64,000 bases of DNA from Arcobacteraceae bacterium. Lineage in GTDB: Bacteria; Campylobacterota; Campylobacteria; Campylobacterales; Arcobacteraceae. Location: positions 62,001 through 126,000 of the forward strand of contig JAGLOP010000001.1 of the NCBI GenBank assembly GCA_023138835.1. Direction: 5' to 3'. Positions 36,258 to 42,339 of this stretch are shown piece after piece (the first letter of the stretch is position 1; the number at the start of each line of letters is the position of its first letter). The translations under genes and the position numbers were made by a program. The notes beneath the pieces were generated by a model, which was not told where the DNA came from, searched no databases, and saw nothing but the letters and a program-made list of their open reading frames with translations.

Positions 36258-37343
36258 TTGCAAAATATTTTAGATAAGCTATATGAGGTAAATTTTGAAA
36301 AAGTTTTTCCACTTCAGCGAAAAGTAGAAATAACTTATCCATATACTATAATTAAAGGTTCTCCTAAAAGTGGAAAGAGTTATTTGATATTTGATTATTT
36401 AAAGCAATATAAAAATGAACAATACTTATATATAGATTTAAACGATATGAGAATAGATAAAAATACAATCTTTTACAATCTTGATAGATTTTTATTACAA
36501 AATAGAGATATTGAAATACTGGTACTTGACAATATAATAAGTTTGCCAAATGATTTTTTTAAACATTTAAGCATTTTAAAAAGTTTAATTATATCAACTT
36601 CATATGATATATCTTACAAAAATTTTAAAACTGTTCTTTTACAGCCTCTTGACTTTGAAGAGTTTATTTTATTTGACACAAAGCATCACAATACTACTAA
36701 TAAATTTAACAGTTTTTTAAAATACGGAAACTTTCCGGAAATTGTACAATTTAATGAAACAAAACAACTTCATAGAAATCAAGAGATTCTACAATTAATC
36801 ACTCAAAATAAAATTGAATTAGAAATTTTAAAACTTTTAATAAAATCAAGTGGTGAATTAAAATCAATATTTCAACTTTTTAATACTTTAAAAAAATCAT
36901 ATAAAATATCTAAAGATATGTTCTATAAAACATCTAAACAATTTGAATTAAATTTTATAATATTTTTTTGTCAAAAATATGAACAACCTAAAGCAACTAA
37001 AAGAATCTATTGTTATAACCATGCTTTAATTGATGCTGTTAATATTAATAAAAAATTTCAAAATATATTTTCAAATATGATTTTTCTTGAATTAAACAAA
37101 ATTTATAAAAATATTTACTATCTTGATAACATTGATTTTTATATAGAAGAAAACCACTCTATAATATTAAGTATTCCTTTTTTTGCCGATCATATTTCAT
37201 TGTCAGCAAAAATATTACCAAGCTTAGAACAATATGATATAACAAATATCACTATCATTACTATAAGTACAGAAAAAACTGTCTTTATAGATGATATAGA
37301 GTGTGAAGTGATACCTTTTTATGAATGGGCATTAGGGTTATAA
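36258..37343 (+). CDS. Orphan P-loop ATPase (AAA-type, DUF4143-like)
   Basis: 361 residues. Walker A is GSPKSGKS at 34-41 and a Walker-B-like strand is EILVLDNII near 85. The second half includes a stretch that looks like a winged helix (LLIKSSGELKSIFQLFNTLK) and a C-terminal nuclease-like beta region (FYIEENHSIILSIPFF, EYDITNIT-like). The overall plan matches the ATPases with a C-terminal DUF4143/nuclease-like domain found singly in many bacteria. The start is TTG at 36258, with GAAAGG 7 bases upstream. It stands alone between the S10 promoter region and a convergent BON gene. Function unknown. Confidence 0.65.
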   Translation: MQNILDKLYEVNFEKVFPLQRKVEITYPYTIIKGSPKSGKSYLIFDYLKQYKNEQYLYIDLNDMRIDKNTIFYNLDRFLLQNRDIEILVLDNIISLPNDFFKHLSILKSLIISTSYDISYKNFKTVLLQPLDFEEFILFDTKHHNTTNKFNSFLKYGNFPEIVQFNETKQLHRNQEILQLITQNKIELEILKLLIKSSGELKSIFQLFNTLKKSYKISKDMFYKTSKQFELNFIIFFCQKYEQPKATKRIYCYNHALIDAVNINKKFQNIFSNMIFLELNKIYKNIYYLDNIDFYIEENHSIILSIPFFADHISLSAKILPSLEQYDITNITIITISTEKTVFIDDIECEVIPFYEWALGL

Positions 37344-37348
37344 AACCC

Positions 37349-37906
37349 TTATTTCTTTGATTTTAAGAAAGATTTAACTGACTTAACACCCTCTACACTT
37401 CTCGCATATTGAATTGATTTTGTAATCTCTGCTTGTGTTCCAACAGTTCCCCAAAGTACTACTTGACATTGTATTGTAGAGATATGAATATTTGTTGACC
37501 ATATTGATTTATCTCCAACAAGTTTAGCTTTTACATCTACAGTAATACCTAAATTCTTTTTTGTATCACAAGGATCATCTTTCTTTGCACGAATTAAATA
37601 TGATTTAACAGATTTAACACCTTCAACTTTTTTTGCTGAACCAATAAATCTATTTTTTTGTGAATTATTCTCATATTCACCAACTAAAAAGACATCACCC
37701 TCATAACTTGTAACACTTACGGCTACTAAATCTGAAGATTCTTCATCGCTTAGATTCTTTAATATTTTAAATTCTATTGCAGTATCATTTGCTATTGTTT
37801 TTACATTTCTTTCATCCACGGCTGCAGAGTATATTGTTCCAAAACATCCGGTATTTGTCAAAACTATGAACCCCAATGTTAACAACATTATAATTAATTT
37901 TTTCAT
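37349..37906 (-). CDS. BON-domain outer-membrane lipoprotein
   Basis: 185 residues with a lipoprotein signal (lipobox near NTGC, Cys21). Two BON-type units follow: VAVSVTSYEGDVFLVGEYEN ... VEGVKSVKSYL and IQCQVVLWGTVGTQAEIT ... VEGVKSVKSFL, each ending in the same GVKSVKS motif. The family includes YraP/DolP and OsmY, which bind phospholipids and help envelope integrity. The gene is alone and converges with the ATPase, with only 5 bases between the two stops. Confidence 0.85.
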   Translation of the reverse strand: MKKLIIMLLTLGFIVLTNTGCFGTIYSAAVDERNVKTIANDTAIEFKILKNLSDEESSDLVAVSVTSYEGDVFLVGEYENNSQKNRFIGSAKKVEGVKSVKSYLIRAKKDDPCDTKKNLGITVDVKAKLVGDKSIWSTNIHISTIQCQVVLWGTVGTQAEITKSIQYARSVEGVKSVKSFLKSKK

Positions 37907-38022
37907 CTCAATTCCTTGTGTGATTTTTTCAATTATATCTTAGATTACAGTTAATTGTCAATCATTTTAATTAAGCTAAGATTAAACTTTGTAGTGATAA
38001 CATACCGAACAATTATATTTTA

Positions 38023-38028
38023 TATAAT
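38023..38028 (+). promoter_or_regulatory. -10 element for the riboswitch transcript
   Basis: TATAAT ends 6 bases before A33/G34 of the aptamer (38033-38034), so transcription would begin at the first paired bases of the aptamer. The -35 region is poor. Confidence 0.5.
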
Positions 38029-38032
38029 TTTT

Positions 38033-38100
38033 AGCCAAACTTATCGTGAGGTAAGGACGGAAAGCTACGGGTCTTGATTTTAAGATAGCCGAGTTGCAAT
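38033..38100 (+). ncRNA. Candidate cyclic-di-GMP-I (GEMM) riboswitch aptamer
   Basis: Elements of the GEMM motif occur in order: AGCCAAAC on the 5' side; a stem CTTATC/GGTAAG closed by a GTGA (GNRA) tetraloop; GGACGGAAAGCTACGGGTCTT; a short loop; and AAGATAGCCGAGTTGC on the 3' side, which can pair back with the 5' side to close P1. In GEMM the GNRA loop docks into the second stem. The consensus GACGCAAAGC reads GACGGAAAGC here, one base off. It sits 66 bases upstream of a 59-residue reading frame. A variant recognising a related cyclic dinucleotide cannot be excluded. Confidence 0.75.
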
Positions 38101-38133
38101 AACTACACATAAGTCCTGCAACTTGATTTTTTT
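38092..38133 (+). terminator. Terminator competing with the riboswitch aptamer
   Basis: AGTTGCA (38092-38098) pairs with TGCAACT (38117-38123), and T residues follow at 38127-38133. The left arm is the 3' strand of aptamer stem P1, so terminator and ligand-bound aptamer exclude each other. This predicts that ligand turns the gene on. Confidence 0.65.
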
Positions 38134-38166
38134 AAGATAATTACCTATATTTTAGGAGTTACTATT

Positions 38167-38346
38167 ATGCAAACAATTAATAATGATATTTCAAATTCTT
38201 CATTTAAACCTTATATCTATTCTCATAGAGATGAAACTAAATGGAATTGGAGTTTTAATAAAAAAGAAACAAGTGGTAATAATAATATACTTCTTTTAAT
38301 ATCTTTATGTTCAGTTATCTTATTATTTTTACTAATAAAGTATTAA
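38167..38346 (+). CDS. Small single-pass membrane protein downstream of the riboswitch
   Basis: 59 residues: MQTINNDISNSSFKPYIYSH, then RDETKWNWSFNKKETSGNNN, then a single hydrophobic helix ILLLISLCSVILLFLLIKY that ends the protein. Start ATG at 38167 with AGGAG 8 bases upstream; stop TAA at 38344-38346. The N-terminus is polar with three aromatic Trp/Phe residues, so the topology is probably N-in or tail-anchored. It has no recognisable family. Its position directly behind a cyclic-di-GMP-type riboswitch suggests a role in surface lifestyle or motility, by inference. rnhB follows 64 bases later. Confidence 0.7.
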   Translation: MQTINNDISNSSFKPYIYSHRDETKWNWSFNKKETSGNNNILLLISLCSVILLFLLIKY

Positions 38347-38410: not shown

Positions 38411-38977
38411 TTGTACAAAAAAACAAAAAATTTATGCGGAATAGATGAAGCTGGTCGAGGTCCGCTTGCCGGTCCTTTAGTGGTTGCCGGTGTTATTTTA
38501 AAAAAAGACATTGATGGATTAAATGATTCTAAGAAGTTGACCCAAATAAAAAGAGAAGCTTTATTTGATACTATAAAAGAAAAATCTTTTTATCATATAG
38601 TTTTTACAGATAACAAAACTTTAGATGAAATTGGATTAAGCAAAGCAATTAAAAATTCTATCCGAGAAATTATGCAAACATTGGAAGCTGCAACTTTTCT
38701 TATGGATGGAAACACCTCTTTTGGAATTGAAAATCTTGAACACAAAATAAAAGCAGATGCTTCTGTTGTTGAAGTTAGTGCTGCTTCTATTTTAGCAAAA
38801 GTCAGTCGTGACAGATTTATGAATAAAATAGCTGATAAATATCCTAAATATAACTTTGAAAGACATAAAGGTTACGGGACAAAAGCTCATGTTGAAGCTA
38901 TGAGGGAGTTTGGATTATGTGAACTTCACAGAGTAAGTTTTAAAGTTAAATCCTTAGAGCAGCCGTCATTGTTCTAA
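38411..38977 (+). CDS. rnhB: Ribonuclease HII
   Basis: 188 residues. The catalytic motifs are CGIDEAGRGPLAGPLVVAG (Asp/Glu pair), the second acidic site in ATFLMDGN, and the DASVVEVSAASILAKVSRDR region, with the final FERHKGYGTKAHVEAMREFG. It cleaves RNA in RNA:DNA hybrids and removes single ribonucleotides from DNA. The start is a TTG at 38411 placed after AAGGACAATTAG. It might be co-transcribed with the small membrane protein upstream. Confidence 0.93.
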   Translation: MYKKTKNLCGIDEAGRGPLAGPLVVAGVILKKDIDGLNDSKKLTQIKREALFDTIKEKSFYHIVFTDNKTLDEIGLSKAIKNSIREIMQTLEAATFLMDGNTSFGIENLEHKIKADASVVEVSAASILAKVSRDRFMNKIADKYPKYNFERHKGYGTKAHVEAMREFGLCELHRVSFKVKSLEQPSLF

Positions 38978-41529: not shown

Positions 41530-42339
41530 TTAGAGTCCTTTAACTTTCTTCTTATTTTCATACATTCTTTCATCAGCTAATTCTATAATATTATCGAAAT
41601 TATCATCTTTATTAAACATTGCCAAACCATATGAGAAACTAAATTGTATTTTTTCAACTTGTTTTGACTTAAGTGTTTTAGTGGATAAGTCTTTTTGTAT
41701 TTTATCCATTTTTTCTTCTAAGGATTTCGTATCAGGGAAAGCTTTATCAAATATTATCATAAACTCATCACCTGCATATCTTACTACATTAGCCCATTCA
41801 AAAGGCAGTGATTTTTTTAAATAATCAGCTAAATATCTTAACACTTGATCCCCTAAAATATGTCCATAATTATCATTAATAATTTTAAAATCATTTAGAT
41901 CAATAAAAGCCAAACATCCATGATTTGGACATTTATTATCAATTAAATAAAAATCGTTAAACCATCTTCTATTTTTAGCTTTTGTTAATGTATCAGTAAA
42001 TAATTCAGTTTGTAAAAATGCAATTTGTCCCTGCATCTTAATCATATCTTGTTCTATATCATTTAGAGTTTTTGTATCTTTATTTATAATTGCAGTTTGC
42101 GCAGTTTGCGCACTAGAACCCAACTGTATAAGATTTTTATTGGTTTCTTTTACAATTGCATTAATTTTATTTTCTTCATAGTTTAGTTCATTTAAAATAA
42201 CATCTTTTTTTTCAAAATTCACACCATTTTGTTTTGCATTTTTTTCAAAAACTTTAGAATAGTCACTTGGTAATACAATATCCTGAGCTTTTAGTTGTTT
42301 TTTAGTTGTATATGTAGTTTTCATTAATGCGTTAGACAT
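41530..42339 (-). CDS. Diguanylate cyclase (GGDEF), soluble
   Basis: 269 residues. An N-terminal helical part of about 115 residues (EENKINAIVKETNKNLIQLG) precedes the GGDEF domain: TDTLTKAKNRRWFNDF, GCLAFIDLNDFKIINDNYGH and RYAGDEFMIIF. The signature is AGDEF, which is an accepted active variant, with the metal aspartate in FIDLNDFK intact. It likely makes cyclic di-GMP in the cytoplasm. There is no membrane helix or I-site RxxD at the usual place. It is a single gene upstream of the Val/Ser tRNA pair. Confidence 0.88.
   Translation of the reverse strand: MSNALMKTTYTTKKQLKAQDIVLPSDYSKVFEKNAKQNGVNFEKKDVILNELNYEENKINAIVKETNKNLIQLGSSAQTAQTAIINKDTKTLNDIEQDMIKMQGQIAFLQTELFTDTLTKAKNRRWFNDFYLIDNKCPNHGCLAFIDLNDFKIINDNYGHILGDQVLRYLADYLKKSLPFEWANVVRYAGDEFMIIFDKAFPDTKSLEEKMDKIQKDLSTKTLKSKQVEKIQFSFSYGLAMFNKDDNFDNIIELADERMYENKKKVKGL

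Follow-up and report, generated by a model that had tools for sequence, protein, structure and literature searches.

We analysed a stretch of 64,000 nucleotides from an Arcobacteraceae bacterium, referred to below as the window, and focused on an RNA element which precedes a gene for a 59-aa membrane protein. The rnhB gene lies behind it (Table 1). On the other side of the element there is a BON-domain lipoprotein gene (37349-37906), the promoter of which (37932-37961, minus strand) is a perfect 12/12 sigma-70 match (TTGACA, 18 nt, TATAAT) and stands back to back with the promoter predicted for the riboswitch. An AAA_14-domain ATPase gene (36258-37343, plus strand) is inserted beside the ribosomal-protein operon; another AAA ATPase was observed at locus L218, close to the riboswitch-linked small gene found there.

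Table 1. Features of the riboswitch locus, in window coordinates.
Feature	Position	Strand	Basis
-10-like TATAAT of the predicted promoter	38023..38028	+	sequence, hexamer scan
Aptamer core, G20 (38034) to C92 (38097)	38034..38097	+	RF03167 62.6 bits, RF01051 62.3 bits, fold
Core two-pair helix below the ligand site, C21-G46 (38035/38060) and C22-G45 (38036/38059)	38035..38060	+	alignment and pair counts
P2 hairpin, GUGA tetraloop 38046-38049	38040..38055	+	family alignment
A47-A48-A49, ligand pocket	38061..38063	+	invariant in 28 family copies; numbering after PMC3764141
P3 with tetraloop receptor, 3' strand 38081-38095	38063..38095	+	family alignment, fold
Intrinsic terminator, stem 38090-38098 with 38117-38125 (nine pairs), then A and U7 (38127-38133)	38090..38133	+	fold
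Shine-Dalgarno AGGAG	38154..38158	+	sequence
59-aa single-helix membrane protein, predicted controlled gene	38167..38346	+	translation, alignment, family searches
rnhB (ribonuclease HII), 64 bp downstream of the small gene	38411..38977	+	PF01351, 2.8e-35

The RNA was detected by Rfam covariance models at 38025-38102 (+). It scored 62.3 bits with the c-di-GMP-I model (RF01051), far above chance and above the curated cut-off of 35, and 62.6 bits with the c-di-GMP-I-GGC model (RF03167, cut-off 59; E = 2.1e-12 for the 64-kb window), so the two scores are within 0.3 bit of each other. None of the 14 control genomes gave a match in the aptamer search. An earlier, sequence-only reading of the locus had named GEMM-I elements, namely a P2 closed by the GNRA loop GUGA, the segments GGACG, AAAGC and ACGGG, and AAGATAGCCGAGTTGC, and we found all of them in place. 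The aptamer core, composed of P2, the core helix and P3, folds with -17.0 kcal/mol. Residues were numbered after PMC3764141 (G20 = 38034, C21-C22 = 38035-38036, C44 = 38058, G45-G46 = 38059-38060, A47-A49 = 38061-38063, G83 = 38088, C92 = 38097). The residues which recognise the ligand in c-di-GMP-I RNAs, G20, A47, A48 and C92 (PMC3764141), are all present in the window RNA, and so are the GNRA loop on P2, the contact between C44 and G83 and the P3 receptor, which are conserved in the family alignment. Judged by these models and residues, the window RNA is a genuine member of the class I c-di-GMP sensors, which are a well-known class.

Further, we looked at the occurrence of this RNA in related genomes. 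The host genome carries six c-di-GMP-I RNAs, 28 copies were present in 19 of 104 Arcobacteraceae genomes, and 43 of 397 genomes in the phylum sample gave matches; two genomes of the same genus (G051 and G052) were without the RNA. The alignment of the 28 copies contained 76 double-changed cells, compared with 32.6 +/- 4.8 in shuffled alignments and 8-32 in slid controls. Both sides were changed in 5 of the 6 pairs of P2 (99.4% of cells paired) and in 5 of the 13 pairs of P3 (96.1% of cells paired), and this pattern strongly supports the pairing of P2 and P3 in the family. The pairs of P2, P3 and the core covary across the 28 copies. G20 and A47-A49 were invariant and C92 was kept in 27 copies. 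Natural aptamers at L012, L075 and L110 retain G20 and A47 and have U in place of C92 (GUUGUC). Such aptamers amounted to 4 of the 101 copies inspected, and the one at L012 precedes a relative of the small protein of the window.

One core base had been described as off consensus. The G at position 46 (GACGG for GACGC) was indeed seen, but it is not a weakness, as the partner is swapped too (GCC for GGC) and C38035 pairs with G38060. The window thus carries a compensated swap of G21-C46 to C21-G46. The swapped pair is found in each of the 28 family copies. C22-G45 is kept in 27 of them, and in copy L001 it is changed to U-A, again with compensation. An exact-pattern scan for the C21-G46 form in the GTDB species set gave at least 114 stretches, and the matches listed came from Campylobacterota, Desulfobacterota, Gammaproteobacteria and others. 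Since the form is present in these other phyla and also in the solved cGAMP riboswitch, where the same pair is C15-G40 (PMC6274999), we rejected C21-G46 as a clade-specific novelty. On the alignments and the scan, it is a normal natural form of the aptamer.

Because G20, A47, A48 and C92 are all kept, c-di-GMP is the ligand that we would expect from the pocket. Two other assignments were weighed against this one. It is improbable that the RNA naturally senses 3',3'-cGAMP, alone or together with c-di-GMP. This reading draws on the C21-G46 pair next to the pocket and on G91-C92, which are arranged in the window as in the solved cGAMP riboswitch; in P2 of that RNA, C15-G40 and the junction residues A14 and A41 correspond to C21-G46, A20 and A47 in Vc2 numbering (PMC6274999), and point mutations in the lower part of P2 alter ligand selectivity (PMC9262584). 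However, the A at position 20 that is typical of GEMM-Ib is replaced by G in the window and in all 28 family copies, and the single change A20G is sufficient to turn a GEMM-Ib RNA into a c-di-GMP-selective one (PMC6456294). The letters GGC in the name of RF03167 we take to be positions 20, 47 and 92, that is G20, G47 and C92. That the RNA is a true member of this variant, with a different pocket, is very unlikely, even though RF03167 gave the top raw score, just above its cut-off, and the window RNA shares with it a short P1 and the 3' part ACGG...AGCCGGGYUGC. At the position of A47 the model has G, while A is found in the window (A38061, a mismatch in the cmscan alignment) and in all of its 28 relatives; the model also has G-C where the window has C21-G46, and RF01051 scored within the same 0.3 bit. 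Since the window has A47 where the GGC model has G, we regard the RNA as an ordinary c-di-GMP-I aptamer by its pocket, despite the tied scores. With RF01051 it shares the P2 GNRA loop, the P3 receptor, the G20/A47/A48/C92 pocket, C44 and G83, and it differs from that model in C21-G46 for G21-C46 and in a P1 that is hardly present.

Only U14-A93 and U11-A97 could be formed in P1 of the window RNA, the 5' end of which is only predicted. In the family, canonical P1 pairs were formed at 0.24-0.68, compared with 0.31-0.51 in shuffled sequences, and in other groups P1 pairing was only slightly above the shuffled rate. A canonical P1 helix is therefore not supported in this family, its pairing being at chance level. 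P1, the helix which joins the two ends, is seen in solved structures, but it is variable in the c-di-GMP-I class and contributes little to the covariance model; with the model as a whole, the window RNA exceeds the cut-off in any case. Stability of P1 was proposed to tune affinity (PMC9262584). As P1 is nearly missing here, affinity of the window aptamer for its ligand may be low.

We predict that transcription starts near the 5' end of the aptamer. A competing -10 candidate, TATATT, is present at 38014-38019 (+), and no -35 consensus was found for the riboswitch promoter. Across the copies, 21 -10-like hexamers were located within 15 nt of G20, while approximately 14 were expected. This enrichment is weak and not decisive, and a promoter position common to the copies was rejected. 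Copies L004, L005, L006, L009 and L014 carry a TATGTGACAATT-like motif, located 25-35 nt 5' of G20, which is possibly a shared promoter or regulator site.

The T-tailed hairpin at the end of the leader proved to be real. Alone it folds with -11.8 kcal/mol (z = -4.93; 0 of 200 shuffles as good), and p = 0.007 was obtained against shuffles in which the left arm was fixed. The sequence-only reading took the left arm for the 3' strand of P1 and assumed that ligand binding keeps P1. We found instead that the strand shared by both structures is the 3' strand of P3 together with G91, C92 and N93, and it is P3 and C92 that are in competition with the terminator; pairing of P1 is about as frequent in the family as expected by chance. 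Since the left arm consumes the P3 3' strand and C92, the terminator and the bound aptamer are mutually exclusive. The aptamer state has -17.0 and the terminator state -23.9 kcal/mol, a difference of 6.9 kcal/mol in favour of the terminator when no ligand is bound. When folded step by step, the RNA keeps the aptamer form until approximately 38120, which leaves a time window for the ligand.

We consider it highly probable that the RNA is a class I c-di-GMP (GEMM-I) riboswitch of the C21-G46 subtype which works as a transcriptional ON switch. The class, the expected ligand and an ON logic in which terminator and aptamer exclude each other, all put forward before, are backed by the scores of the covariance models, the covariation, the pocket residues and the folding. 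In the proposed mechanism RNA polymerase would first make P2 and P3, and the pocket (G20, A47, A48, C92) would be pre-formed. If c-di-GMP is bound before approximately 38120 is made, P3 and C92 would be locked and the gene read. With no ligand, the P3 3' strand and C92 would pair with 38117-38125, and U7 would end transcription near 38133. Transcription of the gene would thus most likely require the bound signal, and the output, made at high c-di-GMP, would be the 59-aa one-helix membrane protein, perhaps also the rnhB product. The ON design itself is not new, as it was already described for the pilM riboswitch of Geobacter metallireducens, a GEMM-Ib 3',3'-cGAMP riboswitch in which the terminator likewise excludes the aptamer and captures the residue equivalent to C92 (PMC9262584). 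The pair C21-G46 is also present in the solved cGAMP riboswitch of the pilM class (PMC6274999). Unlike pilM, the window RNA has G and not A at position 20 and is without a stable P1. The Cd1 riboswitch before flgB in Clostridioides difficile has an aptamer of the same class, but there the aptamer and the terminator can be present together and the switch is of the OFF type.

The terminator is not conserved: most other copies are without a clear U-tailed competitor, and a strong competitor of the P3 strand was seen only in the window, perhaps also in L009, L013 and L014. A terminator common to the copies was therefore rejected, and the switching direction is not transferable to them. At L012, which lies in genome G047 before the same protein family, the bound-like fold looks more like a start-site masker. 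An opposite or mixed output, in which the main effect of the bound form is to mask the ribosome-binding site (its AGGAG lying in a CCUA/UAGG hairpin) and c-di-GMP lowers expression, would agree with the drop in start-site openness in the bound-like fold (0.54 to 0.28 in the window, 0.46 to 0.13 in the relative from G047). We nevertheless regard such an output as unlikely in the window, where a strong U-tailed terminator excludes the bound aptamer and the local start-site hairpin has only about 4 bp. That the aptamer has decayed and persists by chance, the terminator being the only part still used, is extremely improbable: P1 is nearly absent and the same-genus genomes G051 and G052 are without the RNA, but all pocket and tetraloop-receptor residues are intact and the core pair is compensated.

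What is new here is mainly the unnamed small protein that the predicted ON switch would control. This 59-aa protein has one C-terminal hydrophobic helix, and its family shares the motif Y-x(8,9)-[NS]-W-S-F-x-K. Searches with Pfam and NCBIfam gave nothing over cut-off, only sub-threshold noise (Wap1, 18 bits vs 29.1). We built a profile from four proteins encoded behind c-di-GMP-I aptamers in three genera of Arcobacteraceae, two of which gave no significant pairwise score with the window protein and were linked to it by layout and the short motif WSF. The profile found its own four (E <= 5.4e-22) in 4 of the 104 family genomes, each directly behind a c-di-GMP-I aptamer; as they had been chosen for this position, what carries information is that the search detected no copy away from an aptamer, the best E in the other 100 genomes being not below 0.0015. 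In C. difficile, c-di-GMP-I aptamers also precede small 58-aa proteins (PMC11477304). No terminator was found between the small gene and rnhB, and the two are possibly co-transcribed. In G047 and G102 rnhB is not found beside the aptamer, so it is the small gene that is conserved as the target. There is some chance, which we rate as low, that a functional aptamer without P1 begins at or beside the ligand-contacting G20, with the pocket forming the 5' end of the mRNA, and that the protein is a dedicated c-di-GMP effector kept only under this RNA. Further study is best directed at this orphan protein and at the P1 helix, which is possibly absent. In other Arcobacteraceae genera the same aptamer precedes two further families of unnamed small membrane proteins (L020-L025 and L010, L015, L017), one with the motif FFxWSxP...KKEYHKxxL and the other with YxNxTG...xYWxxGKF.

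The five other copies of the aptamer in the host genome precede a flagellin (L001; PF00669, 2.6e-28), a Flp-like pilin with prepilin peptidase (L004; PF01478), an outer-membrane beta-barrel-like protein below the Pfam cut-off (L005) and, in tandem, a subtilase lipoprotein operon (L006 and L002; PF00082). We found nothing useful on c-di-GMP riboswitches in Campylobacterota or Arcobacter in the literature library searched. The host genome, in an assembly that is 86.6% complete, has 33 matches to GGDEF and none to PilZ at E <= 0.001, and it may use riboswitches as a main c-di-GMP read-out, with flagellin, Flp pilin, the outer-membrane protein and subtilase as putative targets. The analysis would place the window's small membrane protein, which has no named family, under direct control of c-di-GMP as the presumed ligand, and the protein would be expected to act when cells pass from swimming to an attached way of life. 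One GGDEF-domain protein (41530-42339, minus strand; PF00990, 4.7e-28) is encoded between two tRNA clusters, at a distance of 3.2 kb from the riboswitch. At locus L219 (G000:C18, 5382-5838) three c-di-GMP-I aptamers are present in 460 bp. One is directed toward flagellin, and the other two, in tandem, point in the opposite direction, to the genes for a protein of 133 aa and a subtilase lipoprotein of 1297 aa, which makes this locus a putative divergent c-di-GMP control point of swimming and surface genes.
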